The notes under the pieces are model-generated. The model did no database searches. It was not told the DNA's origin and was given only the letters and a program-made list of their open reading frames with translations. The translations under genes were made by a program, and so were the position numbers. Of a DNA stretch of 64,000 bases, positions 22,001 through 63,987 are shown in pieces. This stretch comes from Neofusicoccum parvum (Eukaryota > Ascomycota > Dothideomycetes > Botryosphaeriales > Botryosphaeriaceae), in the NCBI GenBank assembly GCA_020912385.1, contig CP087215.1, positions 2,170,001 to 2,234,000 on the forward strand, given 5' to 3'. Each line of letters starts with the position of its first letter. The stretch's first letter is position 1.

Positions 22001-22041
22001 TCACGAAAATAGTAAGTAATACTGCCTGTGGATAGATTGAC
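19001..22041. other. 3 kb intergenic region, promoter of giant gene
   Basis: No supported gene in 3 kb. The part from 19200 to 20450 is AT-rich with many stops. A minus frame of 249 codons at 21382-22131 overlaps the first 90 bases of the giant gene and has no family features, so I take it as chance. The last 500 bases are probably promoter and leader of the giant gene. A GTAAGT at 22012 followed by CGCAG at 22055 imitates a 44-nt intron, but using it would remove the only in-frame ATG. Confidence 0.6.
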
Positions 22042-25000
22042 ATGTTTTTGCGCAGCCTCGGCTTGGTGGCCGGCCTCTTGCTGCCACCGGCTCAAGGTGG
22101 CATCTTGGGCCGCCGCCAAGTCCGTGTCCACGACCCCGACTGCGTGGTCGAGCTCGATGTTGGCGCCACCGTCCTCGAGCAGCCCGTCGCTGTGAGGACG
22201 TCCATCACCGACCCGACCATCATCACCGTTGGCCCCGGCGCGACCCTCGTCGTTAACAATGTACCCACATATGTTGATACCATTGTGACCGTCATCTCAA
22301 CCGTCATCGGGACTCGCACGCACACCTACACCATTAATAGATCCGGCTCCGGAATCACCTCTACCACCATCCGCACGAATAGACCTGGATTCCCTTCGTC
22401 GACTGTATATTCCTATGCGTCAATCACTCTTACGAGCAGCTCTTTCGGCCCTCCCGGGCCCACTTTTTCCCCGCCTAGTCCTTCCGAGAGCTTGGTTAGT
22501 CTTTGCTGCATCCATGTCCCGAGTCAACTGCTGACATCCCAGTTCCCGGGTCAATCATCCACTCCCAGCTATCCGGGACCCCGCTCGTCGCGCTCTCTTT
22601 CGACTCCCGGCCCGTTCTCGTCTAGTGTCGGCTACAGCTCCGAGTCCCCGAGCTTCTCTAGTTCTGGACCATCGTATAGCGTTCCTTCGTCCAGCGTTGG
22701 CTATAGCTCTGAGTCTTTGAGCTTTCCCAGCTCTGTGTCGACGTATGGCGGTCCTTCATCTAGCAGTGGCTTTAGCCCTGGACCTTCTGGATCCCCCAGC
22801 TCGCCACCAATTGGAGGTCCCTCCTCTAGCAGTGGCTTTGGCCCTGGACCTTCTGGGACCCCTAGCTCGTCTCCAGCTGAATTTCCCTCATCTAGCAGTG
22901 GATTTGGGCCTGAATCATCCGAATTTCCTGGGTCACCATCATTTGGAGGTCCCTCATCGAGCAGTGGCTTCGGCCCCGCGTCTTCCGGATTGCCTGAATC
23001 GTCATCATTCGGAGGACCACCGAGCCCATCTAGCCTTACACCTTTAAGTCCCACTATAGGCCTTCCTCAGACAGCTCTTGTAACACTTCCGTATCTGGGG
23101 CCATCTCCGACTGCGCTCATCATCACTTCGGGCTCATTTTCGCGGCCAGTTTTTCTCACTCCTGCTTCAGCGACTGCATTTTCGGGACCGACAGCGGCAG
23201 ACACGTATACGGCTGGATACGGTGGCTCCATCGTTACCACATTGACCATTCTTCCGACGGGAACAGCTACTGAAGCGACGCTCATCGTAGAAACCCCTAC
23301 ATTCACTCAGACCCTGGCACCCAATGATGTTGTGACACTCACATATCTCGGGCCTTCTCCGTCTGTCCTTATAGGCACGATTGGCACTAATACGCGGACC
23401 TTGTACCTGGTTCCTGCAACTGTGCCCTTCAACACTCGTTCTCTAGCATCGACGTTCACAATCTTTGCCGGCTATGGTGGGCCAACCCCCACCACTTTGA
23501 CTGTCCAGCCTGATGACGGCGTGGGAACCGAAATTGTGGAGACTCCCACACAGACTCCAGCACCTACTTTTACTGGGTCCTTCGGGTACAGCTCCTCAAG
23601 CGCTCCTGGCGGTGTTCCAACTCGCTCTGTTGTGGGCTTGCCGGCACCGACCTCTCTTCTTGCCACCGCAGGTACACTACAGCAGTCGTTGGTTCTTGTT
23701 CCGGCTTCCGAGACAGCGTACTTTGGCCCTCTGGAAACTGTGGCGCTGACTGCGGGATACGATGGACCAACCACGACGACACTGACCATTCTGCCTGGTC
23801 CAACCGATCTTGCAGGCACTCTCCTGGTTGAAACCCCTACAAGCCCCTTCGGACCTTCGAGTTCCTTTGGACCTTCAAGTTCCTTTGAGCCCACGCCCAC
23901 AAGTTCCTTTGGAATAAATCTGTCGGCATCAATTTCTGCTGGAGCATCCAGCGGCCTTCAGTTGACATACCCCTACATCACGGGAACTGTTGTGACCACC
24001 ATCACGTTGCCGTTCGACGGTGTTCCGTACACCGTCGTCTTGACCCCGACCGATGCTTTGTTTACGGGAAGCCTTGCTACTACGACTTACACGATCGGGT
24101 ACGACGGTCCGACACCAACAGCACTGACGTTGCTGACATCGTCGGGCTCGTTGCAAGAGGGTCTCGTTGTTATTGAAACGCCTACTGGATTCCAAAGCTC
24201 GCCGACTGGGGTTTCAAGCTCTCCGAGCTTCTCTTCCTCTGGTGTGACGTCTTCGGGACTTCCTGGCTTCATCAGCACTTTCCCTTATGTCGGCGCCACT
24301 ACAACGGAAACCCTGACTGCGACAGTGAGCGGTACACCGATCACCTTCGTCATCACCCCCAGCGCTGCGCTCTACTCTGGCGTGATTGATCCCTACAATA
24401 GCATAACAGCCGGATACACCGGCCTGACAACTCAGACATTGACCCTCTTGCCCGTTAGCGGAACAGTGGCCACCATCTTAGTTGAAACGCCGACCGGTTT
24501 ATCCTCGTCTACTGGGTTTGCGTCGCCTACTCCTTCAGTATCGGCTCCATTCTCTCAGTACTACATCGGAGGGACCTCGACTATTAATGCGATTGCCACC
24601 TATGAGGGAGGGCTGACAAGCTTGCTCTTGGGCCCCACAGACACCTTCTTCACTGGTGGTCTTGATCCGTTGACCACGTTCTACGCCGAATACCCGGGCT
24701 TCACCACGGAGAGCGTAACGCTTCTGCCGACAGGAACAAACTCGCTCGGAACTTTGCTCATAGAAACCCCGGTGGCGTTGATTACGTCGGCGCCGAGTGC
24801 CTTGCCTGCTCTCACTCAGGGATACTATGGAGGATCAACCACACAGACGCTGTACCCCACCATCAACGGCATTCCGAGGACGTTATACGTCATTCCATTG
24901 CCTTATCCGACGTCCTCTCTCGGCGTTGTTTCTTCCACGTTGACCGCTGGTTACCCTGGATCGACGCCCCGAACAATTACGCTTGCCCCCACAGTTTCGG

Positions 25001-28000
25001 GAGGTCTTGGTACCATCCTGGTCGAAACGCCCCAGGCTGCGCTTGTCTCATCGAGTGCTCTGGGCGGCATCACGCGTTCTTACGTCGGCGGTTCGGACAC
25101 GCAAGTCATCACTCCTGGAATAAGTGGTCTGCCAGGGAGTGAAGCTCTGACGCTCACCCCCGCAGCGACTATTTTCACTGGCCCTGTGGACCCATCGGTC
25201 ACTTACACCGCAAACTACCCGGGCTCGACAACGCAGACGATCACCGTTTTGCCTGGCCCGCTTGAGATCTATGGAACGGTTATCATTGAGATCCCTGCCA
25301 CGCTGCCCTCGGTCTCCGCGGGAGCCACTGGTCCCTCAGCGTCAGTGGGAGCCACTGTTGGACTAAGCCTTGGCCTTCCCTACGTTGGAGGCACTGCCAC
25401 GCAGACAATCTCTCCCTCGATCAGCGGGGTTCCCATTGGTGTCGGTCTCACATTGACTCCTGTGTTGACCACGTATTACACGGGCCCTGTAAGCCCCACC
25501 ACGTGGACGGTCGGCTTCGATGGCTCTGTCACTGTTACAATCACAATTTTGCCGGTTGGCAGCAACTTAGTTGGCACAGTGGTTGTGGAAACTCCCACGT
25601 CGATTCCAAGTGCATCAAGCGCTGGCATTCTGTCTCTTCCGTACATTGGCGCCACCGAGACGCAGACCATCACGCCCATTATTTCCGGCGTCCCGGTCAC
25701 GCTGGGCTTGGTTCCCACCTCGACTCTCTTCACTGGGCCTTTGTCGACGCCCCCGTTGACGGTTGGATACCCTGGGTCTACCACCCGTCTCATCACCATC
25801 GTTCCAGCTAGCGGCTCACCCGGTTTTGGCACAGTTGTTGTGCAAACCCCCACGTACAGCCTGCCCCCCTCGTCTGTTTCGGCGCTGCCTACTGGCCCTG
25901 TTACGAAGCCATATCTTGGTGGTCTCTTTCCCACCGTGATTACGCCTGTCATCGACGGTGTGCCAGTTACACTTGTCCTCAGCCCCACAACAGGATCGTA
26001 TGCCGGGCCGTATGCAACAAGTGCGCTTACTTTGGGGTACCCTGGATATACCACCGCCACAATCACAATTCTGCCGACGGGTTCTGAGACTCTTGCAACC
26101 CTTGTCGTCGAAACTCCTACCGGAAGTGCTTCTGGGCTCACCAGCGCGCCGTCGCCCAGTGAGACGGGTTTGAAGACGCAGGGATATCTGGGCGGCAACG
26201 GCCTCGTGACAATCACCCCGACAATCAACGGTCTGCCCGTTCCGGTCTACATCACTCCCACCGATGCTTCGTTTACCGGTCCTTATGAAACCTTTGTGCC
26301 CACGATTGGGTACGACGGCTCAACCACGGCTACCATAACGCTACTCCCGATAACTGCAGGTGGCAGCGGAACGCTGATTGTGGAAACCCCCACCAGCTCA
26401 TTTGGAAGCTCTGCCAGCGCAAGCTTCCCCATCATCGGCCTCCCGTCGCCTACCAACTTCGACAGGCCGTACGTCTATGGTACGACCACCACCTTTGTGT
26501 CCGCAACGCTTGGCGGCGCCACCTTCACGTTCACCCTGGTTCCCGCCTCAACTTCGTACTTTGGACCTGTAGACCCAAGCTTGACCTTCACAGTTGGGTA
26601 TCCAGGCGTTACAACACAGACGATTACACTTGTTCCCACAGGCACTGAAACCCAGGGAACGGTGCTTTTGGAGACCCCAACAAACTCTTTCTCCGGTCTT
26701 TCATCTAGTGCAACGCCTTCTGCTGCAGGAATCACCGTGCCGTATCTGACAGGTACCTCGACCGTGACGGTTCCAGCGACCGTGAGCGGCGTTCCCGTGG
26801 TCTACACGCTCACACCTGCTGTCGGACAGACTGCCTACACCGGCCTGGTCGATCCGTTCCTGACGTTCACAATTCCCTACGACGGCCCAACTGTGACTAC
26901 GCTGACGATTCTGCCTACCGATCCTCTGCAGCCCTTCGGAACGGCTGTCGTGGAAACTCCAAGATTCCCTTCTTCGTCAGCTTCCTCAGCATTGCCATAC
27001 TTCACGACTGTCACGATAGGGTACGGTGGATCTGTGGTTGCAACTTTCACGGTTCTGCCGTCGGGCACTAATATTGGCACTGTACTCGTGGAGACTCCTT
27101 TCGGTTTGCCATCCTCCTCTCCGACCTTTGGCCCATCGAGCGCCTCCATCACAGCCGCACCCACTGGCGTTCCCACATTGCAGTACGTCGGCGGCTCAAG
27201 CATCGCCACGTTAACTGTCTCTGCGGGTATCACGGGCGCTGCTTCAGTCGTTGTGATCACACCAGCTCCGATCCCGCTTTTCACTGGCCCGATTGACCCC
27301 CAGACGACGCTGACGGCTGGATATGATGGAACTGCTCAGATTACAGTCACGATTCTTCCAACTGGTTCTCAGACTGCGGGGACCTTGCTTGTGGAAACCC
27401 CAACACTGATCACTTCTGTGTCTGCTCTCACTTCTACGTCTGCTCTCACTTCTGCGTCTGCTCTGCCAACCGGCATCATCACACGTCCGTACGTTGGCGG
27501 CAGCTTGATTGGTCCAATCACCGCCTTGGTGGGAGGTAGCACAGGTACCCCTTCGGCAATTTTCATTACGCCTGCAACAGCCTTGTTCACCGGCCCCGTT
27601 AATTCGGAGACTCTTACAGCAGGCTACCCAGGCAATGTTATTGCTACAATTACTCTGCTGCCGCTTCCTGGAGAGACCGAAGGAACGGTCGTTGTGGAGA
27701 CTCCTACAGGGCTTGCAACGTCGGCTTCAAGCCTGGCCATCACTCGAGGATACATTGGTGGCGCAGATACTCAGACCATTACTCCATCGGTCACCGGCGC
27801 AGGCCTCCCTGGCTTTGTCATTACGCCGACCGTCGTTACTTCCACCCCGGCTGTGAATCCGACCTTGACTTTGACCGTTGGAGCCTCCGTTTCCGCGACA
27901 ATCACGCTTACGTTGCTGCCACTTGCCCCCGGCGACCTTGCCACGCTCCTGGTAGAAACACCTCTGACACCTCTGCCGACGGCTACTCCTACCTCCTCAC

Positions 28001-31000
28001 TGGTTGGTGCTGGTCAGCCTTACATCGGCGACACGACAAGTGGTCCTGTCACCGCATCTACTGGTCTTGGTCAGCTTCCTTCGGTACTCAACCTCTCGCC
28101 AACTACCGCGTTTTTCACTGGACCGTTTGAGAGCTTCACCTATGTCGCTCCATGGACCGGCACGACCACCAAGACACTAATTCTGCTACCAACCGCTTCT
28201 GGGATTGCAGGCACGATTCTCCTTGAGACTCCGGCCTCCACGTTGGCCACTGGCACTTCAACTTCGTTGCCCACTGCCCCCGCTGGCCAGCCTTACATCG
28301 GGGATACCACGAGTGGTCCAATCACTGCATCGACTGGGCTTGGCCAGCTGCCTTCAGTGTTGACTTTGATTCCGACGAGTGGCGTCTTCACGGGGCCATT
28401 TGAGTCATTCATCTACACAGCGCCATGGACTGGAACGACAACAAAGACGCTCGTCTTGCTCCCAACTGCCTCTGGCACGGCTGGCACGCTTCTCGTCGAG
28501 GTTCCGGCCTTTGGTACTTCTTCGCTGCTGCCCACCGCCACGGCAGGCAGGCCTTACATCGGAGACACAACAATTGGTGTCGTGACGGCCTCGGCAGGTC
28601 TGGGTGCTCTGGCCACCCCCATCTCGCTCACACCTGCTACTGATGCTTCTTTGACATACGCTATCGACCCCCTCACCACTCTGACGGCCGGCTACCCTGG
28701 GTTCACCCCGAAGACTATTACATTACTTCCCAACCCTGGAGCGACGCTTGCCACTCTCCTTGTGGAGACTCCTACGGGATTCTCTTCGACCCCGCTACCG
28801 ACTTCCAGCTTCGGACGACCCTACGTTGGAGATACGACAAGCGGTGTGCTTCTCGCATCGCCCGGCATTGGTGCTGCACCGACATCCTTCAACCTTGTGC
28901 CCGCTACGGTTCCCTTCACGGGCGCTCTGGATCCCGCGACCACTCTCACCGCGGAGCTACCTGCAGGCTCTACACCAAAGACGATCACCCTGCTGCCGAC
29001 TGACCCCTCAAACACGTATGGCACGCTGTTGATTGAAACACCTGCTGGCGCCTCCTCGTCGTTGCTGCCCACCGCTAGACCTTACCTTGGCGACACGACG
29101 AGCGGCGTGATCTCCGCATCTGCCAGCCTTGGCGCTGCGGCGACACCGTTCACTCTTGTCCCTGCCACTGTCCCATTCACAGCTCTCCTTGACCCGGCTA
29201 CAACACTCACGGCGCAGCTGCCCCCAGGCTCTACACCGAAGACGATTACACTGTTCCCGAACCCGGGCGAGACCTACGGGACTCTGTTGGTTGAAACACC
29301 CGCTGCTCTCACTCCCTCGTCAACGGCTGTGGAGAGTGGTAGGCAGTATGTGGGCGATGTTACCGCTGGACTTCTGACGGTGACGCCCGGTGCTACTGGC
29401 TTGCCCATTACTATTCCCATCTTCCCTGCAAGTGCCTTGTTCACCGGCCCGGTTGACCCCGCAACCACGCTTTTCGCTGGCTACCCAGGGACCACGCCGA
29501 AGACAATTACTTTGCTTCCTACTGCGGGAGGTACTCTTGGCACAGTGGTCGTGGAGACTCCCACGCAGTCGTCTACTGTACCCTCTGCGTCCTCTACGGC
29601 AACCGTTGGTAGGGAGTACATCGGCGATGTCACTACCGGCGTCATTACAGCCACGCCTGGCGGCACTGGCTTGCCTATCACTATCCCAATTTTCCCGGCG
29701 AGCGCATTGTTCACTGGTCCAATTGATCCCGCCACAACCCTTTACGTCGGGTACCCTGGCACCACGCCCAAGACACTGACCCTGCTGCCCACCCCGGGTG
29801 GTACTTTCGGCACTGTGGTTATTGAGACTCCGCAAACTTCTGCAGCTCCTACAACGTCCCCAGCGGTCAGCATCAGCCTCGGCAGGCCGTATGTCGGAGA
29901 TACGACCACGGGAGTCATTACTGCTACAGTTGGTGGTCTTCCTACCACGATCCCTGTTATTCCTGCAACGGAGATTTTCACTGGTCCAATTGATCCTGCC
30001 ACAACCCTTTTCGTCGGGTATCCTGGCACCACGCCCAAGACACTAACCCTACTGCCTACCTCGGGTGGTACTTTCGGCACCGTGGTTGTTGAGATTCCGC
30101 AAACGTCTACTACTCCTACAACGTCCCTAGCGGCTAGCCTCGGCAGGCCGTATGTTGGAGATACGACTTCGGGAGTCATTACTGCTACGGTTGGCGGTAT
30201 TCCTACTACGATCCCTGTTGTTCCTGCAACGGAGATTTTCACTGGTCCAGTTGATCCATCGACAACTTTGACAGCTGGATATCCTGGAACAACGACGCAG
30301 ACCATTACTCTTCTGCCGACGCTTGGAGGAACTCTTGGAACCGTCGTGGTAGAGACTCCGACACAGACCTCTGGTGCCCCCACCGCCTCCCCGACCGCAA
30401 CCCTCGGCAGACCGTATGTGGGAGATACAACAATAGGCATTCTTACTGCTGTTCCCGGAGTTAGTGGTCTTGCTACTACGATTCCTGTCTATCCAGCGAC
30501 ACAGCCCTTCTCTGGTCCTGTCGATCCAACAACGCTTACCGCTGGATACCCTGGAACGACTATAATGACCATTACTCTTTTGCCAACAGCTGGTGGTACT
30601 CTTGGAACTGTCGTGGTGGAGACTCCGACGCAGACCTCTGGTGCACCTACCGCCTCTCCCACCGCAGCCCTCGGCAGACCGTATGTGGGCGACACAACCA
30701 CGGGTATCCTTACTGCTGTTCCTGGAATTGGTGGTCTTGCTACCACGATTCCTGTCTATCCAGCAACGCAGCCCTTCTCTGGTCCCGTTGATCCACTGAC
30801 AACGCTTACCGCTGGATACCCTGGAACGACTACGATGACCATTACCCTTTTGCCAACAGCTGGTGGTACTCTCGGCACAGTGGTGGTTGAAACTCCTGCC
30901 GCAACGTCCTCGTCCCTTCCGACTGCCCGTCCGTACCTCGGAGATATCTCGAATCAGGTACTAACAGCTTCCGTTGGCAACGTTGCCATCACAACTCTCA

Positions 31001-34000
31001 CACTCACGCCTGCTACCGCGGCACTCACCAACCCCGTCAATCCTTCGATCACGTACACTGTTCCGTGGGCCGGAGCTTCGACGCAGACTCTCACGCTGTT
31101 GCCGACACAAGGCGAGACATTTGCGACGTATCTCATTGAGACTCCTGTCGGCGCGCCCACTTCCGCCACCTCGTCCCCTGGTCTGTCCACCTCAGGTAGG
31201 CAGTATTTCGGCGCCACCGTCACAGCTACAATCACCGCAACGCTTGGAGTCTCTGGTCTGCTGACAGGCCTTCCCACTGAACTCGCTCTCACACCTGCGA
31301 CAGCGTCGTACACAGGCCCTATTGACCCCGTGAATACACTTTACGCGCCGTACAGTGGAACGGCCACTCTCACCCTGACGGTCTTCCCAGGACCAGGCGA
31401 AACGTACGCGACCTACTTGATTGAGACTCCTGCAGCTCAGTCTTTGCCGAGCCTCTCTCCCAGTGCCACTGGTCTTCCCACAGGTGGGCGCCCGTACTTT
31501 GGCGACATTACCACAGGAACAGTGACAGCATCCACCGGCCCTGGCGCTATTCCCACTAGTCTTTTCTTGACGCCAACTGATGTGCCCTTCTCTGGATCTG
31601 TCGATCCTGCGGTCCAGTACACGGCTCCATGGGACGGGACTTCCACGAAGACCCTTACCCTGTACCCACTGACTAGTGGTGGTGCTGCAACGCTCCTGAT
31701 TGAGACTCCTTCTGCCGCTATCTCCAGTACCGGTCCTACGAACTCAGCTTCGATTACTCCCGCGCCTACGGGTCTTCCGCGAAGGCTCTACATCGGAGAT
31801 ACCACCACTGGCTTTGTTACTGTCTTGGGACCGAGTGGAGTGCCTACCACCTTCGAGGTTGAGCCATATACCGCTGGATCTTTCACTGGGCCAGTCGACT
31901 TCACCACATTGACTGCCCCCTACGATGGCACCACCGCGAAGCTGGTCACGCTTCTCCCGTCAACTTCGGGTGGCCTGGGCACAGTGATCCTGGAGCTTCC
32001 AAGATCTGCGCTTGCAACTGCAACTCCTGCGCCTTCGTCCTTGCCAGGCCTCCGTCCTTACTATGGTGATACCACCATTGCCACAGTGACTGTCTCCGCT
32101 GCTGCGCTCACTGCGCCGGTCGTTCTTACAATCACGCCAACTGACGCTGCATTCACTGGTTTGCTGGATCCTACAACTCTGACCACAGCGTACGCAGGAC
32201 CAACCACGAAGACCCTGACTCTTTACCCGTACGGGACCTTGAGCCTCGGAACTATCCTGCTGGAGACTCCCTCTGCCACTGCCTCGTCTTCGGCCTTCCC
32301 ATCTGCAAGTGAATCGCCATCTGGAAGTGCATCAGCATCCGGAAGTGCATCAGCATCTGAAAGTGTATCAGCATCTGGAAGTGCATCACCATCCTCTCTT
32401 GCCAGCGGCATATTGTATGACGGCGGCGACGGCACGATTGAAACGATTACGGCTACGCCAGTTGCCGGTGGCCAAACAGCTGGCCCTGGAATCACTTTGA
32501 CCATTACTCCTGCAACTGCTCCATGGACTGGATCCGTCAACCCTATTGGGGCTCTCACCGCGCCTTGGACCGGAAGCACGGTCCGCACTCTTACGTTGCA
32601 CCCTACTGGCACTGATACACTTGCTACGCTGTTGGTTGAGTATCCTGCCGCCACTTCGTCACCGGCAATTCCCACTTCTTCCGCTGCCGGCATACTGTAC
32701 AACGGCGACAGCACCGTTGCCACAATCACCGTTACTCCGCTGGCTGGCGGGCAGCTGACTGGGGCCGTTGCAACCTTGACAATTACTCCGGCTCCTTCGG
32801 CAGCGACATGGACGGGCGCCGTGAACCCTACCGCTGTCCTGACTACGACTTGGACTGGCAGCACCACAAAGACGTTGACGGTCTGGCCCACGGGATCTGA
32901 TTCAGTCGCTACTTTGGTTCTTGAACTTCCTGCGGCAACTCCGTCCGCGCCGTTCCCCTCATCTTCGCTCGCTCTTGCTGTGCCATATGATGGCGATACA
33001 ACTACTGGAGCCGTCACAGCTACACCGTTCGTGAGCGGTGTCTCTGCTGGCCTGCCCTCGACGTTGCTTATTACCCCGGCGGCTACTCCTTTCGCCGGTG
33101 GTGTTGATCCGGCGACCACCTTGTTCGATTCGTGGACTGGTCTCACAACCAAGACGCTCACTCTGCACCCGACTTCTGGAGCATCTCTTGGCACGATTCT
33201 CATTGAGACACCAGCAGCAACAGCGTCGCCTACTGCCCCTAGCCTTGGACGGCCCTACGATGGCGATTTCGTGACTGCTACGATCACGGCCACGGCTAGC
33301 ATTGGCGGTGTTCCATCCACCTTACTTCTTATTCCGGCCACATCACCCTTCGTTGGCCCCGTGGATCCATTGACAACTTTCACCGCCCCGTACACCGGCT
33401 CTACAACAAAGACGCTTACTTTGCATCCCACTTCTGGGCAGACTTTCGGCACGATTGTTATCGAGACGCCAGCAACGACGCCTTCCCCGTCCGCCCCTGT
33501 GCTTGGCAGGCCATATGTTGGAGATACCATCACCGACACTATTACCGCTACGCCTAGTGTTGGTGGCACCGCAGTCGGTGCTCCGTCTACTCTGCTGATC
33601 ACCCCGGCTGGAACTGTCTACACCGGAGCTATCGATCCCCTGACGACCTTGACGGCCCCATGGACTGGTGTGTCAACAAAGACTCTCACCTTGCTTCCCA
33701 CGAGCGGGCAGTCTCTCGCGACTCTGCTCATCGAAACCCCGGTAGCGACGGCCTCGCCGCCTGTATCTTCTGTAGAATCCCTAGCAGCGACGGCTCCGCC
33801 CTCCGCGTCTTCAGAAGTAACCGCTTCGCCATCAGCGTCTTCTCCAGGTGTTACAGCCTCACCCTCTGCATCTTCTCCCGTGCTCGGCAGACCGTACATC
33901 GGCGACACCACCTCTGGCACCATCACGGCAACTCCGGCCGCTCTTCTCCCAGGAGGCAGCCTTGGCCCTATCGGCAATGCGGTTCCGTCCACGTTTGCTA

Positions 34001-37000
34001 TTACCCCTGCTACAACTGCGTACAACGGCCTTGTCGACCCAGCAACTACGCTTTTGGCGCCTTGGACCGGCATCTCGACAAAGACGCTCACGTTGCTTCC
34101 CACAAGTGGAGAGTCTCTCGCGACCATCCTCCTCGAAACGCCTCTAGCAACCGCTTCGCCATCTGTGTCATCTGTTGCTCTTGGCCGGCCATACGATGGA
34201 GACACCACATCTGGACTTGTTACTGCAACGCCTGGTGGCAGTCTTGGCCCCCTCAGCAACGGAGTTCCATCAACCTTCGCTATTACGCCCGCGGCAACGC
34301 CCTACAGTGGATTGATCGACCCTGCCACTACCCTTACAGCCCCCTGGACGGGCAGCACCACCAAGACGTTGGTTCTGCACCCAATAGGACCGGAGTCATT
34401 GGGAACGTATCTGGTTGAGACCCCAGTGGTCACAGCCTCGCCGTCCCTATCTTCACCAGTTGTTGGCAGACCATACTTCGGTGATATCACGACTGATACA
34501 ATCGCGGCTACCCCATTCTCCTTGGGACAGGCAGGCCCGATTGCAGGCGCCCCATCCACGCTGATCATCACACCCGCCACAACTCCCTTCGCGGGTCCCC
34601 TGGATCCGCTCATTACATTCACCGCTCCGTACACCGGTTCTACTACCAGGACCCTCACTTTGTTCCCAACGAGCGGTCAGACCCTCGGAACGCTCCTGGT
34701 GGAGACTCCTGCGGCAGGTCCATCGTCGGCTGCGCCCTCGGCGTCTGCCTCTCTCACTACCGTCCCGTCTGCCGCACCATCCGTGCCCGCTTTCCTCTAC
34801 GATGGCGACACCATCACCGCGACCATCACAGCCACGGCGGGTGGAAGTCTTGGAGTCACTCCCGGCGCCGCGCCCTCAACCCTCCTTCTCACTCCCGCAC
34901 CAACGCCGTTCTCCGGCGCCATCGATCCTGCCACGACTCTGACGGCTCCGTGGGATGGTGCATCGACGAGAACTCTCACACTTCACCCCACTGCCTCCGG
35001 ACAGACGCTCGGAACGCTTCTGGTGGAAACCCCGACCGCCACCGTCTCGGCGTCGTCAACGGGTCTGTTGAGCTCGCTGAGCAGCTTGCTTTTCGGCACT
35101 ACTACATCCGAACCGGCGTCCTCACAGACCGTTGCGCCAGGTGCACCCACGGACTTGGGCCTGTCGGCATCGAACTCGCTCTCGGCGTCGTCGGTGCCAT
35201 CGGAATCATCGGCGCCTCCAGCGTCTTCGTTGCCCGCAGAATCTTCGGCCCCTTCGTCCTCCGTTCCTTCAGGCTCTGCTTCTTCGCCCTCGGCTCCTTC
35301 GTTGAGCAGCGAGTCTTCCGCCTCTGTGCCCTCGCAAAGCTCTGCTCCGCCGTCTAGTGTCTCCGCGCCTAGTGAGAGCCTCTCTAGTGGCCTCAGCGTA
35401 TCGACAGAGTCTAGCCTCTCAGGACCTAGCTCTAGCCTTCCGACGGGCTCAAGCGCCTCTGGCATTCCCAGTGGTGCTGCCACAGATCTTGGTCTGAGTG
35501 CCAGTCTTAGCGGGTCTGCAAGTCTTACCCCGTCTGGGTCGAGCGTCTCAACCGGAAGCGTTTCCGCATCAAGTCTCAACCCCGGTGAAGGCTCTGGCCT
35601 GCCCAGCAGCCTTTCCGCCTCTGTCAGCGAACCAAGCGTTGCGTCGTCTATTGCCTCTTCAGCTTTGTCAGAGCTCAGCAACTCTGTCTCTGCTCCTAGC
35701 GGCGTGACATCTGGCAGCGCTCCCACTGGCTCAGCTACGATCACGAACTCTGCGGAAGCATCGTCCCTGGCTTCTTCTCTCGCGTCCCAGCTCAGCAACC
35801 TGCCTTCCGGTGCTTCGTCTGAGGCTTCATCTCTGGTGTCGCAGCTCAGCGAACTGGCCTCAGCATCCAGCGGTGCGCCGACTGGAAGCGTCACGTCCCT
35901 CGATCCGGCTCTTGCCTCTTCTCTGGCGGCCTCGCTCTCTGGTGATCTAAGCACTTTGCCTTCATCCGCTGCTGGCTCGGTTCTCTCGCAGCTCTCGCAG
36001 CTCAGCAGCGACCTCGCCGCAGCCTCATCTGGTGTGCCAAGCGGTGCGTCCTCTGTTGTCCCGTCCGAGTCGGTTTCTGCCTCGGGTGCCTCATCGCTGG
36101 CACCATCTGGTCCTGCGGACTTGGGCTCGGGCTCCCAGAGCCTCCCCAGCACCAGCGCTGCGAGTGGAGTCAGTGCCTCTGCACAGCTCAGCGCATCTGT
36201 CACCGCCCCTACGGAGGCTAGTGTCTCGTCTTCTGGTCTGCCATCCGGTGCGAGTGCCCCGTCCGCCAGTGCGCCATCGGGTGCTTCTTCTTCATCCGGC
36301 CCGTCCTCAGAGGTGCCGAGCGGAGTTTCCTCAGCCAGCGCCCCTACAGCGGCCTCAAGCGTGCCTTCTGGAGCCAGCGCTCCGTCCGAGAGTCTGCCCT
36401 CTGGCGCCAGTGCTTCGTCTGGAATTCCCTCAAGTGTACCGGCTGAATCCAGTGCCTCATCCGGAGCCCCCTCAAGTGTGCCATCTGGTGTTAGTGCGCC
36501 AGCTTCCAACCTTGCTTCGGGCGCTAGCGCCCCGTCTGGCGTTTCTTCAGCTCTTACAGAGTCAGGTGCTCCGTCTGGGGTTCCATCAGAGAGCCTTGCA
36601 TCCGGTGCCAGTGGACCATCGACCAGTGCTCCCACTGGCGCCAGCGCTTCCTCTGGAGCGCCGTCGGCCAGTGCGCCTACTGAAATCAGCGCGCCCGCTT
36701 CGAGCATTGCTTCTGGCGCTAGCGCTTCATCTGGACCGGCCTCATCCAATGTGCCTACGGATATAAGTGCGGTGTCAAGCGGAGTGCCGTCTGGTGCTTC
36801 CGCGTCCAGCGGTCTTCCGTCTGGAGGTTCATCAGCCAGCGAACCCTCCGGTGTCAGTTCATCTGGCGCCTCAGTAAGCGTCTCGACAGAGCCCTCTGTC
36901 TCTGCACCATCCGCATCTAGCCAAGGAGGCGTCATTCCATCTGGAAACTCAGCTCTGAACTCGGCTTCGGGTGAGGCCTCTGTATCAGCTGCCTCATCGA

Positions 37001-40000
37001 TATCTGCTGCTAGCGCAGCGTACTCGTCGTACATCTCGAGTGCCCTCTCTGATCTCTCGCTTACCAACTCGGCTGATGTGTCTTCCGCTCTCTCGAGCTT
37101 GAACAACAACCTCCCTACGTCCTCCGCACCTGGGGTTTCCGCCTCAGTGAGCGCATCTGCGAGCGGACCTGGTCCCTCTGCACCCAGCGCATCTGAGCCT
37201 GGTGTTTCCGGATCAAGCGCTCCAGCAGGTTCAGTGTCAAGCGGAGTCTCTGCGTCTGCACCGGGCTCCTCCGCCCCGGAATCAGCAGCCGGCACTGGAG
37301 CTCCGTCCGTCAACCCGTCCGGCACATCAGGCGCCCCGGGCTCATCCGGATCCGCGGTGGTTCCATCAGGCCCAAGCAATCTTGCTTCGGGATCTGGCGC
37401 GACATCAGCCCTCCCCAGCGAATCCGCTGCCGGCAGCTCTGGCGCTCCGTCTGCCAACCCATCCAACCCGGCGTCAGGATCCGGAGCTCCGTCAGTCGGG
37501 CCCAGCGGTTCCGGCGCCAGCAACACCGTCGTTCCATCCGGCCCGAGCAATCTGGCTTCCGGATCTGCCAGCCCATCGCAGCCTACAGAGAGCGGCGCTA
37601 GCCTTTCCGGCGCGTCTGGTTCTCCCTCGGCGTCTGGTTCTCCTGCAGCGTCTGGTTCTCCCTCAGCGTCTGGTCTTCCCAGCGGCTCTGCTGCGCCTTC
37701 TGGCTCTGCCGGTTCTGAAAGCATTTCCGCCCCAAGCGGCGCATCAGCATCTCAACCCACCGAGCCTAGCGCCTCGTCTACCAATGCCGTGTCGAGTGGC
37801 CCTGCGGCTTCCAGCGCCCCTGGCCAGTCGTCTGCTCCATCTTCTCTCCCAAGCGGCTCCGTCTCAGGTAGCGGAGCGTCTGCCCAGCCAAGCGCTTCAG
37901 GACCAGGTCAATCCGCTGAGTCTGCTGGTTCTGGTGTCCCGACGAGCGGCGGCTCTGGTACTGTTCTGCCCAGCGGTGCGGCCACCAACTTGGGCCCTGG
38001 CGCCTCAGGCTCGCAATCAGCGTCGGGTGCGCCCACGGAAGCATCAGGCTCACAGCCAGCTTCTGGCCTGCCCAGTGGAGCTTCTTCCGGCTCGGCTGGA
38101 TCTGCTGAGCCTAGTGCTTCCGGCCCTAGTGCTTCTGGTCCTGGTGCATCTGGTGTCTCGAGCGGTTCCGTCCTCCCCAGCAGTGGCCAGCCAACGACCT
38201 CGGGCTCCGCCGCCTCTGGCTCGCAGCCAGCATCCGGACTACCCAGCGAATCCGCTTCGGGTGGATCGGCTCAGCCGAGTGGCTCCGCCACCGGTGGCTC
38301 CGCTCTTCCTAGCTCGGGCCAGCCGTCCAACGCGGGCTCTGCTGTCTCGGGATCGCAGCCGGCTTCCGGCCAGCCCAGTGGCTCTGCTTCTGCATCTCTT
38401 CAGCCAAGCGCCTCGGGTCCAGGCGAGTCTTCTCAGCCTGGTGCCTCTGCCTCAGGCTCCTCCGGCGCTCCGGGCAGTTCTGCTCTCGCCAGCGGAGCTG
38501 CGTCCAACCTGGCCCCCAGCGCTTCCGGCTCGCAACCAGCGTCCGGTGTGGCCAGCCAATCTGCGCCGTCCGGTGCCTCTGGCTCGGGCGCTTCGGGCTC
38601 GCAGCCAGCATCCGGTCTTCCCACCGAATCCGCACAGCCAAGTGCCTCTGTTACTGGAGGCTCTGGTCTCCCGAGCGGAGGCGTGACCAGCTCGGGCCCT
38701 GCTGCTTCAGGTTCTCAGCCAGGATCAAGCCTCGCTAGTGGATCTGCTCAGCCTAGCGCATCTGGTCCTGGCAGCTCCGGTGCTCCGAGCGGTACTGTTC
38801 TCCCCAGCGGAGGTGCGACCGACCTGGCTCCTGGTGCTTCAGGCTCCCCGTCAGCGTCTGGCCAGCCTAGTGGAAGTGCTTCAGGTCCTGCGGAATCCCT
38901 CTCAGGTTCTCAACCTACTGGCTCCGCATCTCTTCCTGGATCTGCCCAATCTGGCGCACCGACGGCTTCTGGCGTTCCTACTACTGGCGGAGCTGGCTCA
39001 TCTGCCCCTGGAGCCAGCGCGTCGATCTCCGGCGCCAATCCGTCCGGCAGCTCGCCAGCCTCAGGCATTTCAAGCAGCCAACCCGGCTCTCCATCTTCTG
39101 GTATTGATCTATCAGCCTCCATCAGCGTTGTCATTCCTGGAAATTCCAACCTCGGCTCAGGAGCCTCTCAACCAACTGGATCCGCGTCAGCCGGACCGTC
39201 TGGATCTCTTCCGGCAGGCTCGGTCAGCGGCACTTCGGGCCTTGAGCCTTCGTCATTGCTTCCGGCCGGCACGACTGCTGGTGTTTCATCTGGCTCCCCG
39301 TCGCTCCAAGGTTCGTCGGCTGGTGGTCCTTCAGCAAGCGGCGCTCCTTCAGCCGGAAGCCCATCCGCAAGCCTTCCAACAGATAATTCCGCCTCCCTTG
39401 CAGGACAGAGTTCCGGTTCTCTTACCGGCCGCCCTGACAACAGCCTTTCTGCCGGTGGTGCTTCTTCTGGCGCTCCCTCGTCTGGTGGCCTGTCTGCCAG
39501 CCAGCCGACTGATCTTTCCGCCTCCTCGCTTGGCGTCAGCGGCCCCGCTACGTCTGGCCCAGGATCAACTTCCCCCGGTGCCGTTCTGTCTGGTGCTAAC
39601 TCCAACCTAGGCCAGGGAGCATCTGCCTCTTCGGCCCAGTCTGGCTTGCCGTTGTCGCTGTCCGGTGTCTCAGAGTCCGGTAACCCATCCTCTGGTGTGC
39701 CTTCTGCAAGCGGTGTCACTAGTGGCGGCTCCTCTGCACCGTCAGCCTCCGTCCCTGGTGCCAGTGCTTCGTCGGATAGTGGTATCTCTGCAGGGCCTTC
39801 AGCATCCGGCCCATCTGCGTCCAGCGTGAACTCTGGCAGCCCCTCTTCGGCTGGTGGTTCGTCGGCCTCCTCTCCCGGCGCTGTTTCGGGCTCGCAGTCC
39901 CCATCCGCAGGCCTGTCTATTTCAATCGGTCTCTCTGCCGGTTCTCCCTCGAGTCAGGCTTCGTCTGGTATCCTCCCATCTGTAAACTCAGACTTGGGCT

Positions 40001-43000
40001 TGGGAGCCTCGTCACAGCAGAGCGGCTCCCCATCAAGTCTGTCGCTTACTGGCGCTTCGCAATCAGCTAACCCATCTGGCACTGTTCTTCCGTCAACCTC
40101 AGGTGCCGCATCCTCGCCCACTGCCGGCTCATCTTCGCCTGGCATTTCCGGTCCGAGCAACACTGCTAGCAGTCCCGGTGCCAGTGCACCTCTTTCGACG
40201 TTCACGCAGACTTCCGGTGCCCTTGCATTCACTTCCACTCGCACCCAGATCCTGGCAGGTGTACCCTACACCGATGTGGTTGTAAATGTCCCGGCGGCCG
40301 TCACTTCTGGTGGCCTCCAGACCTACACGCAAACTTCTGGTAACACTGGATTCACCACGACGCTTTCCCAGAGTTTCTTCGGTCTTCCCGCTACAACTTA
40401 CGTGGTTGTTAACGTGCCAACTTTCATTCCTCTGCAGACGGTCACGCAGACTTCCGGTGCACTTGGCTTCACTTCCACCCGTACCCAGAGCCTTCCTGGA
40501 ATCGGGCCTTACACCGATGTGGTCGTGAATGTACCACAGGGCTCTCCTTCGGCCAGCCTTCCGACGATTACGCAGACTTCTGGTAATGTCGCGTTTACAT
40601 CGACCGTTCCCACGTTAATCAACGGGGTTCCTGCTACGCTTGTGGTCGTGAATGTACCGCAGGGCTCTCCTTCGGCTACCCTTCCAACGATTACGCAAAC
40701 GTCCGGTACCGTTGGATTCACATCTACGGTTCCTACAATAGTCAATGGTGTTCCTGTTACGCTGGTAGTAGTCAATCTGCCGCAAAGCGTTACTCCGGCT
40801 CCCCTTTCGACGATTACCCAAACATCCGGTAACGTTGGATTCACGTCCACGTTTCCCACGGTAGTCAACGGTGTTCCTGTTACGCTTGTGGTTGTCAATG
40901 TTCCCTCATCAGCGTCGTCTCCCGGTGATGTTCCAAGTCAATCTTCAACCAGCCCGGGCCTTACCGGTAGCGCTCCTCTGTCGACCTTCACACAGACATT
41001 CGGCATTATTGCCTTCACATCTACTCGCACACAGCTGATCAACGGTTCTCCGTACATGGATATCGTGGTCAACATTCCACAGTCAACATTGTCCCCAAGT
41101 GCTCCAACTGCCACTTCCAACAGCGCACTTGGCTCAACTGGCGCGCAATCATCTGGTTCGCCTACATCCGGAGTTGGCAGCTCTTCAGGCGTCGTGTCCG
41201 GTGCGAATTCGAATCTTGGCATTCAGTCCACTCCGACAAATTTGCCTACAATCACCCAGACTTCGGGTTCGGTTCCGTTCACTAGCACTATTCTCACTTA
41301 TCTCAGTGGTACCACCAGTGCGGTTTCGGCCGTTCTTGTCAACGTCCCACAGACCAATGCCCCTGCAAGCCTCCCCACCATTACATCGGGCAGCATCACA
41401 TTCACTGGGTTGTACCAACCCTCTGGTTTCCCCCCTCCCCCTCCCATCACTGTTGTCTACGTGCCTACGCCCACGCCGGTTGCCCCGATCACAATCACCC
41501 AAACCTCCGGTCCCGTCGCCTTCACGTCTACTACTATTACATCAAATTCCGGTGTTAATAGCGGGCTCCCGTACACCGCAGTGATAGTGAATGTTCCCAC
41601 TCCCGTCGGAAACCTCGCCACCATCACGTCCACTTCAGGCAGCGTCGCATTCACCACAACGGCCGTTTTCCCGACGTATTTCAACAGTATCGGTTTACCG
41701 TTCTTTGCTTTTACCACGCAAGTCGTCGTCTACGTGCCTACACCCACATCATTTGTCCCGATATTCACGACCACTCAAACTTCGGGCCCAACAGCCTTTA
41801 CGTCTACTGGCCCTGCCGTCAATCCAACTATCAACGGTGGCCAGCCATACACCCAAGTGGTGGTCAATGTGCCGACGCCATTTGCTGTTACTACCACGCA
41901 AACCTCGGGTCCTCTCCCTTACACGTTGACGAATATCGCTATTGACCCGACCGTCAACGGCGGCAATCCTTACACCCAGGTGGTGGTGAATGTACCTACG
42001 CCATTCATTTTCACAACCACGCAAACTTCGGGAGCCTTGCCTTTTACATCAACTGGTCTTACCTCGAACGCCCTGGTTAACGGCGGCCTACCATACACGC
42101 AGGTGGTCGTGAATGTGCCTACGCCATTTGCTGTCACTACTACACGAACCTCAGGTGCCGTGCCTTTCACATCAACGGGTCTTGCCGTTGATCCTCTGGT
42201 CAATGGCGGCTTGCCGTACACCCAGGTGGTGGTGAACGTACCTACGCCGTTTGCTGTTACTACTACACAGACCTCAGGTGCCTTGGCTTTTACTTCCACT
42301 GGTCTTGCCGTCAATCCGTCAATCAATGGCGGAAATCCCTACACGCAGGTCGTGGTGAATGTTCCCACTCCCTTCGGGTTTACTACGACCCAGACCTCGG
42401 GCCCTGTCGCGTTCACCACGATCTTTGTCACGCAAAACCCGGCTATCAATGGTGGCTTGCCGTATACTGAGGTCCTCGTCAACGTCCCTACTCCATTTGG
42501 CCCCGTTACAACCACGCAAACCTCCGGTGCTTTCCCTTTCACGACTACCATCGTCACAGCCGATCCATTTGGTTCTGTTAACAGCGGCCAGCCTTACACG
42601 GCAGTCGTCGTCAATGTTCCTACTCCATTTGGGCCCGTTACAACAACGCAGACTTCTGGAGCTGTGCCATTTACCAGCACCGTGCTTACGTCTGATCCCT
42701 CCGGCATCGTTAATGGTGGTAGGCCTTACACTGCAGTCGTCGTTAATGTGCCCACACCATTCGCACCCGTTACAACAACACAGACGTCAGGAGCCGTGCC
42801 ATTCACCAGCACCGTTGTTACGTTCGATCCTTCCGGCATCATCAACGGTGGTAGGCCTTACACGGCAGTCGTTGTTAATGTACCTACACCATTCGGACCC
42901 ATCACGACCACACAGACTTCCGGTATTGCGTCTTTCGTAACCACGGTCTTGACATCCAATCCGTCTATCAACAACGGTCAACCTTTCACGGAGGTGATTT

Positions 43001-46000
43001 ACAATGTCCCAGCCCCTACTATCATCAACCCTGGCAACACCGCGCTTGGCGGTGCGCAGTCCACCCCCGGCCCTATTTTCACGACAACACAAACGTCTGG
43101 CTTAGTGCCCTTCACTACCACTTTGGCCACGATTGGGGCGGATGGCACTCTTACTACTGAGATTCTCGTCGTTGTCCCGACTTCAGCTGCCGCTTCGCCA
43201 ACCTCGTCCACCTCTGCAGTTGCCAGCTTCACCAGCAACATATGTTTGCCCTCTGCAGGCGCAGGAACGCCACAATGCGTGTCAGCGCTTCCCTCCGCAT
43301 GTCAACCGGTTACCGTTACCAACCCCTTTGGTAATCCCTTCGGCTTCGGCAACACGGTGTCTACAATTGACTACGTTAGTTGCCAGGCTGCCTTATCTGG
43401 GCTGGGTATCGCGGGTGCTGCTTCCTGCTTTGCGTCAAACTTCATCTCCAACATCGGCTCCGGTGATCCAACGCATGCGAACTTCCTCGGTTGTCTACAG
43501 AACAGCTTGCCGACGTGCTCACAATGCGTTGACAGCATTCCGCCAGCTTGCCAGGCTCTGTCGTCTCTCGGCGGTGGCTCTCTCTTGGGCTCTGCTTCTC
43601 TGTTGGCTTGCCAGACGGCGCTTGGTGTCTACAGCACAACTGTCGGCCTGTCTTGCTTCGCTAGCAACGTCATTAACAGTGCCACGGGGGCCAACATTCT
43701 TTCATGCATTAACCAGAACATCCCTGTCTGCAACACCAACGCCGCGACGCCTACTTCTCTTCTAGCTGCAACGACTTCGGTGCAGTGTGGTACTGCGGTG
43801 GCAACTTCCTGCGTCACTGCTCTGCCTTCAGCCTGCAATACTTTGACCTCACCCGGAGGGTCTGGGCCTCTCAGCAACTTCTTCGGCAGCGCGGTGAACG
43901 GCGCCAATTTCGCCGCTTGCCAGGCCGCGTTGGGCATCTTTGGCACCGTAAACGCAGCTTCCTGCTTCAGTTCCAATTGCGTATCATCCTTCACCGGCTC
44001 TGATCTCCAATCCTGCCTCCTCGCAAACGTTGGGACATGTTCCAACTGCGTCAACAGCATTCCAAGCGCATGCCAGGTGCTCGCCAACTACGGCTCTGGT
44101 TCCGCCCTCTCCGCCGGTCTCATCGGACTTTGCCAGACAGCCATCGGTCTTTTCGGCCAACTGGATGCCGTCTCCTGCTTCGACAGTACCCTTACACCGC
44201 AGATCGGAACGAGCATCCTCAGCTGTCTTACGCCCTTGGTTCCAACATGCTCCGGAGGCTCCAATTCTCCGTCACCTGCCTCGCCTGCGCCCAACGCTCT
44301 CTCGACCAGCTACCAGCAGTCTGGAAACGTTGCCTTCACAACTACCGTCACGACGAATCCACCTGGATTCGCCCCACCGACGACTTACGTTTTGGTCAAT
44401 TCGCCTGTTGTCCTCCCTACATCTTACCAACAGAGTGGAAATGTGGCATTCACGAGTACGGTCACAAGCAATCCGGTCTTCGGGTTCGGGCAGGGAACCA
44501 CTTACGTCTTGGTCAACACACCAGCGGTCTTCGCTCTCTCAACCACCACCCAGACCGGCGGGGCAGTTGGCTACACATCCACTGTAGTCACCGATCCACC
44601 TGGCTTTGCCCCGCCGACAACGATCGTTGTCGTCAACGTCGCGTTGACCGTGACGCGCACCTCTGGAAACGTGGCATTCACGGCTACAACCTTCAGCACT
44701 AATCTCGCTGGTGGTCCGGGGTCGTATGTCCTGGTGAACGTCCCGCAGAGTGGTGCCATCGCACCACCTGGCCAGAGCAATATCGCTCCGATGCAGACAC
44801 CCTACCCAACCATCACCCAGACTGGTGGCGCCGTCGCCTACACAAGTACCCTGTACACCGACCCTGCGGGTGCTCTTGGCCCTGGTACTTACGTCGTCGT
44901 CAACGTGCCCGCTGCCACTCCTGTCACTTACCCAAGGTATACGCAGACCAGTGGTCTCGTCGCCTACACAAGCACCCTATTCACCGATCCGCCTGGCGCT
45001 CTTGGTGCTGGAACTTATGTTGTCGTCAACGTGCCCGCCGCTACCCCGGCTGTTACTTACCCGAGGTACACGCAAACCAGTGGCCTTGTCCCCTACACAA
45101 CTACCGTGTTCACCGACCCGCCAGGCGCTCTTGGCGCCGGAACTTATGTCGTCGTCAACGTTCCGTCTCCAGCCTATCCGACAATCACCGTGACTGGCGG
45201 CGCAGTTCCATTCACAACAACTCTGTACACAGATCCGCTAGGCGCTCTTGCACCGGCTACCTACGTCGTGGTCCATGTCCCTACTCCGACCTATCCGACA
45301 ATCACCGTGACTGGCGGCGCCGTTGCATTTACAACAACTCTGTACACCGATCCGCCAGGCGCTCTTGGTCCGGCCACTTACGTCGTGGTCAACGTTCCGG
45401 CTCCGACCTATCCGACACTCACTGTGACTGGTGGCGCCGTTGCTTTCACAACTACTGCGGCCACTGATCCAGCGGGCGCTCTCCCCAGCGGTACCTACGT
45501 GATTGTCAATGTTCCTGCTCCAACCTATCCGACACTCACCGTAACTGGCGGCGCTGTTGCTTTCACGACTACTGCGGCTACCGATCCTGCGGGCGCACTC
45601 CCCAGCGGCACCTATGTGATTGTCAATGTGCCAGCGCAGTCGCACCCGACAATTACCCAGACCGGTGGCAATGTCGCCTACACGAGCACTTTGTTCACCG
45701 ACCCACCTGGCGCTCTTGGCGCAGGAACGTACGTGGTTGTCAACGTTCCAACTCCAGCCCTCACGGTGACTCGCACGTCTGGCAGCCAAACGTTCTACGC
45801 CACGAGCGTGAGCACCGCCGCAAACGGCGGGACTAGCAATGTTGCCGTCATCACCGTTCCCACCGCGGCTCCGTTCAAGATCGCTGTCTCTGACTTCTCG
45901 CACAACTTTTACGGATACTTGGACGTGCTCAACACCGCCTTCAGCGGCACAGCTCACTCGTGTTCCCCGGTATCCGATTACACCAGCGCGTCTTTGTTCT

Positions 46001-61996: not shown

Positions 61997-63987
61997 CTAC
62001 ACAAGATATATGCTAGACTCAGACGGCTGCTGGTCTACCCAACTATCTAATTCTCTGAGAAGACCAAAACCGACGCGAATGTAAGTGTCTGGAACATTTT
62101 CTAGCCGTCGAAGTAACAAGGCAGTATAGGACCAGTTCAGTAGGTTTGGGTGGAGTCTGACCAAAAGACAGTGAAATGGTCCCTGGGTATCCTGCGCAAT
62201 ATCTGGACCTACAACACCGGCAAACTCGTTTGAGTCAGAAAGAAGGATGCAGTCACACGGATCGGAGAGAGGGGAGCGCATCTCATCCGCCATAGGTTTT
62301 ACGTTGACGCGTAAAACCTTGCCTCTGGCCTTAATCCTCTTCCCCGAGATATCCGGCTCCAGCGACACGACCGTTTCCGCACCTGACGGGGGACCTGCAG
62401 ACTCTCGATCGAGAATATCAACGGGGCCACACGTGGAAGCCCAAGACCAGGATGGGATGTGCTGCAGCTCCGCAGGCCGGGAGAGACTGTCGGGTTGACC
62501 GCATCGGATCCAACTGAGGTCTTGAACTAAAGAGTCCGTCCAGCATCCGTACCAGCACTTTCCAGTCCTAGTATTTCCAAGTTCCGCGATGACTCCATCA
62601 AGTGCAATCAGCTTATCCTGCATGAAAGTAAGCTTTCGACGAGAGTATTCGCGGACGATGACACCCCAATCCATCGTCGCACGCCCGTACGACCACTCGA
62701 AGATTCCATCGTCCCACAGACCTGCCTCCGAAAATTTCCTGCACGTCCACACGATGGATTGAGAAGTGTAGTAAAGGAGACGACGTGCGAGAATGTACTC
62801 TTGTGTTGTCCAAGCTCTCTCATTGAGCTTGCTACCCGCGGGGTGGATTTCATGATCGAGTGGACGCATCTCCGCCCAGATATAGCCTCCCTGGTCTCCA
62901 GATCTGGTGTAATACGGAAGGCGGACGGGTTGGTACTTTTGATACTTGCGAAACATCCCTTCAGAAGCGCTTGCAGAGTCAGATGCAGCGATGACGACAC
63001 TTGCCGCCTTGTAGACGGCTCCCATTTTTGATGCCTCTCCTTTCCAATCGGCTGGGTCATCCTGCAATATGCAGAGGCAGTCAATCCAGAGGTACCGTAG
63101 GCCTAAGGATTTTGCCACCTGTACCGCATCCTGGAATGTCTTTGGAAGTTGGGACAATTCCATACCAGCAAGACGACTCTCTAAGTTTGCTCTCGTTGTC
63201 TTTGGCGGGTGCTGTTCTGGTGGGCCCCAGCAGTAGCTGAGGGCTGCATAATTTCCGCGCATTCCATCTGCACTGATCAGGAGGATCCTAGAATCTTCAT
63301 CTCCCATGTCAAGGACCCGACTGGGAAGGAATGGTTGCTGCTCTTCGTCTATCACGTCTCCAGCAATGGCTTTTCGACACTCGTCATGATGAGCGACGCA
63401 TCCAGAGTACCAGTTCCGAACAAGGTCTAATGCTTCACGCGATCCGGAATCAGAGATTTGGGGTTTGCAGTAGACCCTTCCTTCCCTGGCTGCTTCGCTG
63501 TCTGTTGAAAACTGTTAGAATATAATCACTTAAACCCGTTACAGAATGGTGAAGAGGAACCTGGCTCGGAAAAAAATCGTATGACCCTTCTCGGCCCGGA
63601 AAATATTCCTGGCTTCATCATAACTTCGTAGCTGACTTCTATAGAGGATATTCCAGGTCTGTCGTCCAGCTCGAAGTCCATGGGATTCTTCACTGCATGT
63701 CGCCGGAGGATATACTGAATTGCATGGCCTGGTAAGGCACTGTCGACCCCCGTTGGTATCTCCAAGTATTTTTCCCGGCCTCCATCATGGAACGCTTGAC
63801 TGACAAGGTTGCAAAGTATACAGACAGGAAATGTGGCGATGAATTCATCACGTGGATGGTTAAAGTAACGCATATTTGTCGTGGTGGTACTTATTGGGGA
63901 CTTGCTCTCGTCCAACTTTCCGGAAAGACTTTTTAAGAGTTCTGTACATCTCGTGCATATTTTGATGTCGGAACCCGATGCTGACAT
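61997..63987 (-). CDS. HET-domain (heterokaryon incompatibility) protein
   Basis: The main frame ends at 61997, and the first exon starts at ATG 63987, 13 bases from the window edge. The N-terminus has CTRCTELL and CILCNLV cysteine pairs. The HET core is clear: YAALSYCWG, LPKTFQDAVQVAKSLGLRYL, WIDCLCILQDDPADW, ASKMGAVYKAASVVIAA, then LNERAWTTQEYILARRLLYY. The tail IPSWSWASTCGPV is typical of the family. HET proteins trigger growth arrest or cell death when incompatible hyphae fuse. An intron lies near 63495-63540: the first exon frame stops just after FCNGF, and the second frame is open from about 63510. A GTGATT donor with branch TTCTAAC can be joined to a downstream CAG in frame, but the exact junction is not settled. 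Length is about 640 residues. Confidence 0.85.

Follow-up and report, generated by a model that had tools for sequence, protein, structure and literature searches.

A predicted giant secreted protein of Neofusicoccum parvum with a C-terminal GLEYA domain and a likeness to fission-yeast adhesins

An adhesin family of Schizosaccharomyces, comprising Map4, Mam3 and their relatives, was reportedly delineated by Linder and Gustafsson in 2008. According to passages of PMC6023273 and PMC13147542, fission-yeast adhesins combine secretion signals with Ser/Thr-rich repeats, lack a glycosylphosphatidylinositol (GPI) signal and end in a C-terminal GLEYA/lectin-like or DIPSY domain; the well-studied yeast adhesins, as given in passages of PMC6023273, consist of 600-2500 residues and possess GPI anchors. 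In literature excerpts, GLEYA proteins of nematophagous fungi appear as candidates for host adhesion. The stretch analyzed here, referred to as the window, comprises 64,000 nucleotides of the Neofusicoccum parvum genome (assembly GCA_020912385.1, contig CP087215.1, positions 2,170,001 to 2,234,000) and contains a single open frame for a protein of 8,315 residues. Judging from its sequence, this giant protein is probably a secreted fungal wall adhesin that has no GPI anchor and carries a C-terminal lectin on a very long tether. On this reading, the predicted protein is an outsized version of a known adhesin kind, supplemented with an orphan cysteine module and an unnamed N-terminal domain.

The frame extends on the plus strand from ATG to TGA at 22042..46989 (8,315 codons), exactly as stated in a preliminary description of this locus, whose estimate of about 0.8 MDa before glycosylation also agrees with the computed mass of ~807 kDa. 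The nearest in-frame stop upstream is at 22033, with no ATG in between; an upstream start reached via a 44-nt intron-like stretch (22012-22055, overlapping the ATG) was rejected because there is no in-frame ATG upstream. Across 100 first-order Markov sequences matched in composition, the longest stop-free run over all six frames has a mean of 309 codons and a maximum of 545. The predicted protein has an isoelectric point of 4.05, is composed of Ser and Thr to 31.5% (2,622 of the 8,315 residues) and contains few charged residues (24 Lys and 68 Arg) and five N-glycosylation sequons. The gene ends ~149 kb before the end of its 2,365,821-base contig, in a genome of 43.99 Mb on 18 contigs. Along the frame, the following features are recognized (positions in the window; aa, amino acid):

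22042..22098, plus strand: probable signal peptide (aa 1-19), from hydropathy and a start aligned with two paralogues
22099..22425, plus strand: N-terminal domain (aa 20-128), recurring in two large secreted proteins encoded elsewhere in the genome
22426..23031, plus strand: Ser/Pro/Gly-rich linker (aa 129-330), holding a 66-nt (22-aa) repeat
22495..22542, plus strand: possible in-frame intron of 48 nt, a candidate based only on the motif GTTAGT...CTGAC...CAG
23032..35034, plus strand: class A, 42 full units of ~90 aa and one half unit (aa 331-4331), ALS-like beta units
35035..40185, plus strand: Ser/Pro/Ala/Gly low-complexity tract of 1,717 residues (aa 4332-6048; 38.4% Ser+Thr), with frame evidence for its translation
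40186..43179, plus strand: class B, ~22 repeat units with a length of ~41 aa each (aa 6049-7046), consensus TxTQTSGxVAFTST...VVVNVP
43237..43521, plus strand: cysteine module 1
43522..43740, plus strand: cysteine module 2
43777..44046, plus strand: cysteine module 3
44044..44268, plus strand: cysteine module 4
44275..45864, plus strand: class B', a further 13 of the ~41-aa units (aa 7412-7941), same family as class B
45865..46611, plus strand: conserved region before GLEYA (aa 7942-8190), without a family name, common to the relatives P0002 and P0003 and the first part of P0004 (described below)
46645..46902, plus strand: GLEYA (PA14-fold) lectin domain (aa 8202-8287), Pfam PF10528
46711..46716, plus strand: Asp-Asp pair (aa 8224-8225), in alignment with that of Epa1 and Cea1

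Translation of the entire frame as one protein is supported by three independent tests on the sequence, namely of frame, substitution and intron signals. When similar 45-nt stretches are compared inside each of four repeat tracts, the offsets between near-repeats are multiples of three in every case (106 of 106 in class A, 63 of 63 in class B, 33 of 33 in the Ser/Pro/Ala/Gly tract and 8 of 8 in the N-terminal linker), and the mismatches fall at codon position 3 in 59%, 65%, 54% and 52% of the cases, respectively. The ratio of nonsynonymous to synonymous differences (pN/pS), restricted to repeat pairs with at least 60% protein identity, is 0.325 for class A (38 of the 861 pairs among the 42 full units, the half unit being excluded from these counts), 0.317 for class B (74 of 190 pairs; 20 units used) and 0.302 for class B' (27 of 55 pairs; 11 units used). 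One pair of neighboring 39-aa copies has the same protein sequence despite differing at 14 synonymous sites. Intron-like motifs, in which a donor and an acceptor enclose a branch-like site, occur 14 times in the frame, compared with 28.1 on average (standard deviation 5.4, minimum 17) in 200 synonymous shuffles, a depletion that is expected if splicing harms the message. Among these 14, the 48-nt candidate at 22495-22542 ranks first; its removal would cost 16 residues.

The alternative, that several transcripts, large introns or assembly errors split the frame, is very improbable in view of these three tests, even though other frames are also open over long stretches and a relative of the protein in Diplodia seriata is annotated at just 453 aa. 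The latter gene model begins within the ~41-aa repeats and therefore looks like a truncated prediction. Furthermore, the class A copies are diverged (mean identity 42%), which makes assembly collapse or false joining less likely. One of the other open frames is antisense (34983-37724, minus strand, 913 aa) and lies within the low-complexity part; nothing else argues for a gene there. Long frames of this sort are in part a consequence of composition. The longest antisense run, of 922 codons, is equalled in one of 200 synonymous shuffles (shuffle mean 432), so that composition alone does not quite account for its length, an edge case.

The domain that defines the C-terminus of the predicted protein can be assigned with certainty from sequence: GLEYA (PF10528) is matched with an E-value of 1.2e-25 at 90.1 bits, above the cut-off of 26.2, and the genome search gives 92.4 bits. 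The PA14 model itself (PF07691) scores 14.7 bits, under its cut-off of 24, and the locus is outside the six PA14 matches of the genome. A C-terminal profile built from the giant protein and three relatives matches solved lectin structures, with the best values for Epa1 (1.4e-11), Cea1 (1.6e-10) and Epa6 (6.6e-10), followed by Flo5 (1.8e-4) and Flo1 (2.7e-4). The aligned Asp-Asp pair is, according to passages of PMC6308950, part of the binding pocket of the yeast lectins; of the remaining residues of the DD-N and W-R pocket signatures, the Asn and Arg of Epa1 land in an insertion relative to the profile, and the Trp is unaligned. By hydropathy, a GPI-type tail is not seen, the best 15-residue Kyte-Doolittle mean in the last 60 residues being 1.06. 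A structure model of the C-terminal region computed from four sequences was discarded (mean predicted local distance difference test score, pLDDT, 32.7). The C-terminal region as a query finds a single place in its own genome, which is this frame. One further GLEYA gene is present in the genome (C9:2375191-2375463, plus strand); it is short and multi-exon, and its domain lies in an open frame of 240 aa.

In a large database, four proteins are related to the last 385 residues. One of them, P0002, is the 453-aa protein UCDDS831_g03855 of Diplodia seriata (54% identity, with 97% of the 385-aa query covered, E 9.6e-122); P0003, a metagenomic protein of 659 aa (37% identity), contains the conserved region followed by two consecutive GLEYA domains; P0004 is an unnamed 214-aa piece (66% identity over 30%), and P0005 is a GLEYA protein of Trichoderma (33% identity over 44%). 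In both P0002 and P0003, ~41-aa repeats immediately precede the conserved region, so that the order of repeats, conserved region and GLEYA domain predates N. parvum. When residues 7040-8315 served as the query for relatives of giant size (0.55- to 1.75-fold in length), none of the 596 scored candidates reached an E-value of 0.001. The preliminary description suggested that the module order might be undescribed. Among the literature matches listed for GLEYA adhesins, Pezizomycotina/Dothideomycetes, giant wall proteins, adhesins of Botryosphaeriaceae and the Diplodia protein, no title or opening of an abstract describes this architecture or this size; the C-terminal part, given the Diplodia seriata protein, is not unique.

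The class A units resemble Candida_ALS (PF05792) repeats in sequence. Among the 24 candidates scored, class A is the only locus of the genome with a match to this model at an E-value of 0.001 or better; in the genome search, one unit (31903-32001) exceeds the cut-off of 25 with 26.8 bits, and in hmmscan all class A pieces remain under it, the best at 24.6. Matches at E-values up to 1 are obtained with 19 of the 37 unit pairs that, out of 41 adjacent pairs, were chosen for suitable length for the two-unit alignment. Of ten randomly chosen pairs, three match Candida_ALS, compared with none of the ten shuffled versions. The units are modeled as six-stranded beta domains with a flexible linker (mean pLDDT 84.4, predicted template modeling score 0.48), and comparison of the pair model with PDB gives no significant fold match. 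Pairwise identity among the 42 full units ranges from 27 to 94%, with adjacent units at 52% and those 30 apart at 37%; the greater closeness of adjacent units suggests growth through local duplication. All genome matches of the class A query, at 17 places, are inside the giant frame. Comparing the two halves within a class A unit gives no support for homology (hhalign probability 1.5), nor does comparing class A with class B (probability 0.3).

The ~41-aa blocks on both sides of the cysteine modules form, by sequence comparison, one repeat family: class B and class B' (19 of the 22 and 11 of the 13 units, respectively) align with an hhalign probability of 98.2 and an E-value of 3.8e-14, compared with a probability of at most 2.3 in 20 column-shuffled controls. 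The joint alignment has 34 rows, one aberrant unit of ~39 aa (aa 6437-6475) being excluded. These units are rich in Val, Thr and Asn, and VxVNVP-type motifs are present in 24 copies in the giant protein; the genome matches of the class B query, at nine places, are again all inside the giant frame. Thus, the four repeat classes reported in the preliminary description reduce to two clear families, of ~90 aa and ~41 aa, to which a 22-aa Ser/Gly repeat (four copies of PSSSSGF in the linker) and the low-complexity tract are to be added. The four cysteine modules of that description are present (aa 7068-7403), with six Cys each in common. As a query, they find a single place in the genome, this frame, and show no match in Pfam or PDB. 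For the ratio of nonsynonymous to synonymous rates (dN/dS), none of their six pairs attained 60% identity.

At the opposite end, the hydrophobic N-terminus (best 11-residue Kyte-Doolittle mean 1.98, from hydropathy only) and a start that aligns with those of two paralogues are consistent with the signal peptide that the preliminary description had placed there. The adjacent N-terminal domain has no match in Pfam. In a genome search, this domain recurs at C7:1895113-1895448 (minus strand) and C8:53913-54278 (plus strand), with 36% and 35% identity and E-values of 1.4e-10 and 2.1e-9, and is confirmed by the reverse search from C7; in the alignment, the paralogues have the signal-peptide region and ~75-100 residues in common with the giant protein. 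The C7 paralogue (C7:1883902-1895538, minus strand) is a secreted-type frame of 3,879 aa, rich in Ser, Leu and Pro. In the C8 paralogue (C8:53862-58217, plus strand), ~54 kb from the contig start, the first exon encodes 1,452 aa, and the gene probably continues into further exons. No match to the class A, class B, cysteine-module or C-terminal queries was found in either paralogue in the genome searches. The C7 paralogue also served as the query for proteins related to the N-terminal domain; in this search, which could reach proteins of ~650-2060 aa, none of 217 candidates was such a relative. Behind the domain, the C7 paralogue has long PSVSLPT-type repeats of Ser, Leu and Pro, and there is a 674-codon open run on its antisense strand.

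On the basis of sequence, the N-terminal domain is possibly the wall-attachment part of the protein. A broader proposal, to be regarded as tentative and rather doubtful, starts from the presence of aa 20-128 in three large proteins of this genome that are otherwise unrelated (8,315 residues, 3,879 residues and a minimum of 1,452 residues). This part might be an unnamed domain for attachment to the wall, characteristic of a Dothideomycetes family of giant surface proteins that lack a GPI anchor and in which stalks and heads are swapped; the giant protein would then be the lectin member, with an unusually long tether made in part of an orphan six-Cys module. The paralogues, which retain the N-terminal domain alone, with low-complexity bodies and without GLEYA, are also compatible with a different kind of protein, a mucin-like coat or sheath. 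Here the repeats and the low-complexity tract would surround hyphae or spores with a layer that is hydrated or beta-aggregated, and the role of the lectin would be limited to tying this coat to polysaccharides that belong to the fungus itself or are neighboring. The high Ser+Thr content, the near absence of charge and the length of the low-complexity tract would suit such a layer as well. This explanation appears unlikely, considering that a lectin domain with a C-terminal end conserved in other fungi, together with purifying selection on the beta units, suggests more than bulk.

The modular giant secreted or surface protein with a C-terminal GLEYA domain that was proposed in the preliminary description remains the reading best supported by the frame evidence, the Pfam match and the lectin profile matches. 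Under the adhesin interpretation, the signal peptide would direct the chain into the secretory route, where the Ser/Thr-rich protein is likely to be heavily O-mannosylated, and the N-terminal domain would anchor it in or on the wall. The class A beta units and the 1,717-residue tract would make up a stalk with an estimated length of several hundred nm, such that the large number of repeats places the lectin far outside the wall. The approximately 35 units of ~41 aa may contribute beta-aggregation or clustering, and the four disulfide-rich modules may lend stiffness or cross-links to the outer part. The GLEYA domain, identified by homology, would bind a glycan on another cell or surface. An opposite orientation is conceivable, in which the secreted protein rebinds wall polysaccharide through its C-terminal lectin, with the N-terminal part facing outward. 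Fungi are known to secrete proteins that then rebind via a carbohydrate-binding domain at their C-terminus; passages of PMC6023273 describe this for BAD1 of Blastomyces, whose C-terminus binds chitin, and such a route fits with the apparent lack of a GPI-like tail. This arrangement is nevertheless quite improbable given that the GLEYA/PA14 lectins of yeast adhesins, in the literature passages, point outward and bind partner glycans, and that the common N-terminal domain could itself be the part on the wall side.

The neighborhood of the giant gene in the window includes genes, all on the minus strand, for a glycoside hydrolase of family 39 (2391-3377), an N-acetylglutamate synthase type acetyltransferase (12147-14168) and a HET-domain protein (62000-63355).

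If the adhesin interpretation is correct, an 8,315-residue non-GPI lectin tether in a filamentous ascomycete extends the plan with a C-terminal lectin beyond fission yeast. It also raises the question of how non-GPI proteins stay in the wall, for which the common N-terminal domain is a concrete candidate. Why such genes are likely to be overlooked is illustrated by the only named relative, whose annotation covers 453 aa and begins within repeats.

Compared with known systems, the giant protein is ~3.5 times as long as the 2,362-residue Als2 (passages of PMC6023273 and PMC13147542). The earlier placement among the largest fungal wall proteins holds insofar as the protein is above the range of the well-studied yeast adhesins, a comparison with that range alone and not a census. 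Of its class A units, one is over the PF05792 cut-off for the repeats of Candida Als proteins in the genome search, though not in hmmscan, and others match weakly. These units measure ~90 aa, compared with ~36 aa in Als, and the protein is without the N-terminal Als binding domain and a GPI-like tail. With the PA14/GLEYA lectin adhesins of yeasts (Epa, Flo and Cea1 of Komagataella), it shares a homologous lectin domain with the Asp-Asp pair. In those proteins, the lectin is N-terminal and the GPI anchor C-terminal, whereas here the lectin is at the C-terminal end, without a GPI-like tail, and the Trp-Arg signature of Epa could not be placed in the alignment. Blastomyces BAD1, in passages of PMC6023273, is likewise secreted, highly repetitive and devoid of a GPI signal, with a C-terminal carbohydrate-binding domain, but its repeats are of 24 aa and rich in Cys and Trp, and the C-terminal domain is of another type. 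The Diplodia seriata protein, annotated short, has the same succession of ~41-aa repeats, conserved region and GLEYA. The nearest precedent for the overall plan, by analogy, appears to be the fission-yeast family. As defined in the literature passages, its non-GPI adhesins have in common with the giant protein the signal peptide, beta-rich Ser/Thr repeats, a C-terminal GLEYA domain and no visible GPI signal. The giant protein is much larger, is built of ~90-aa and ~41-aa families, and adds cysteine modules between the repeats and the lectin as well as an N-terminal domain common to large proteins.
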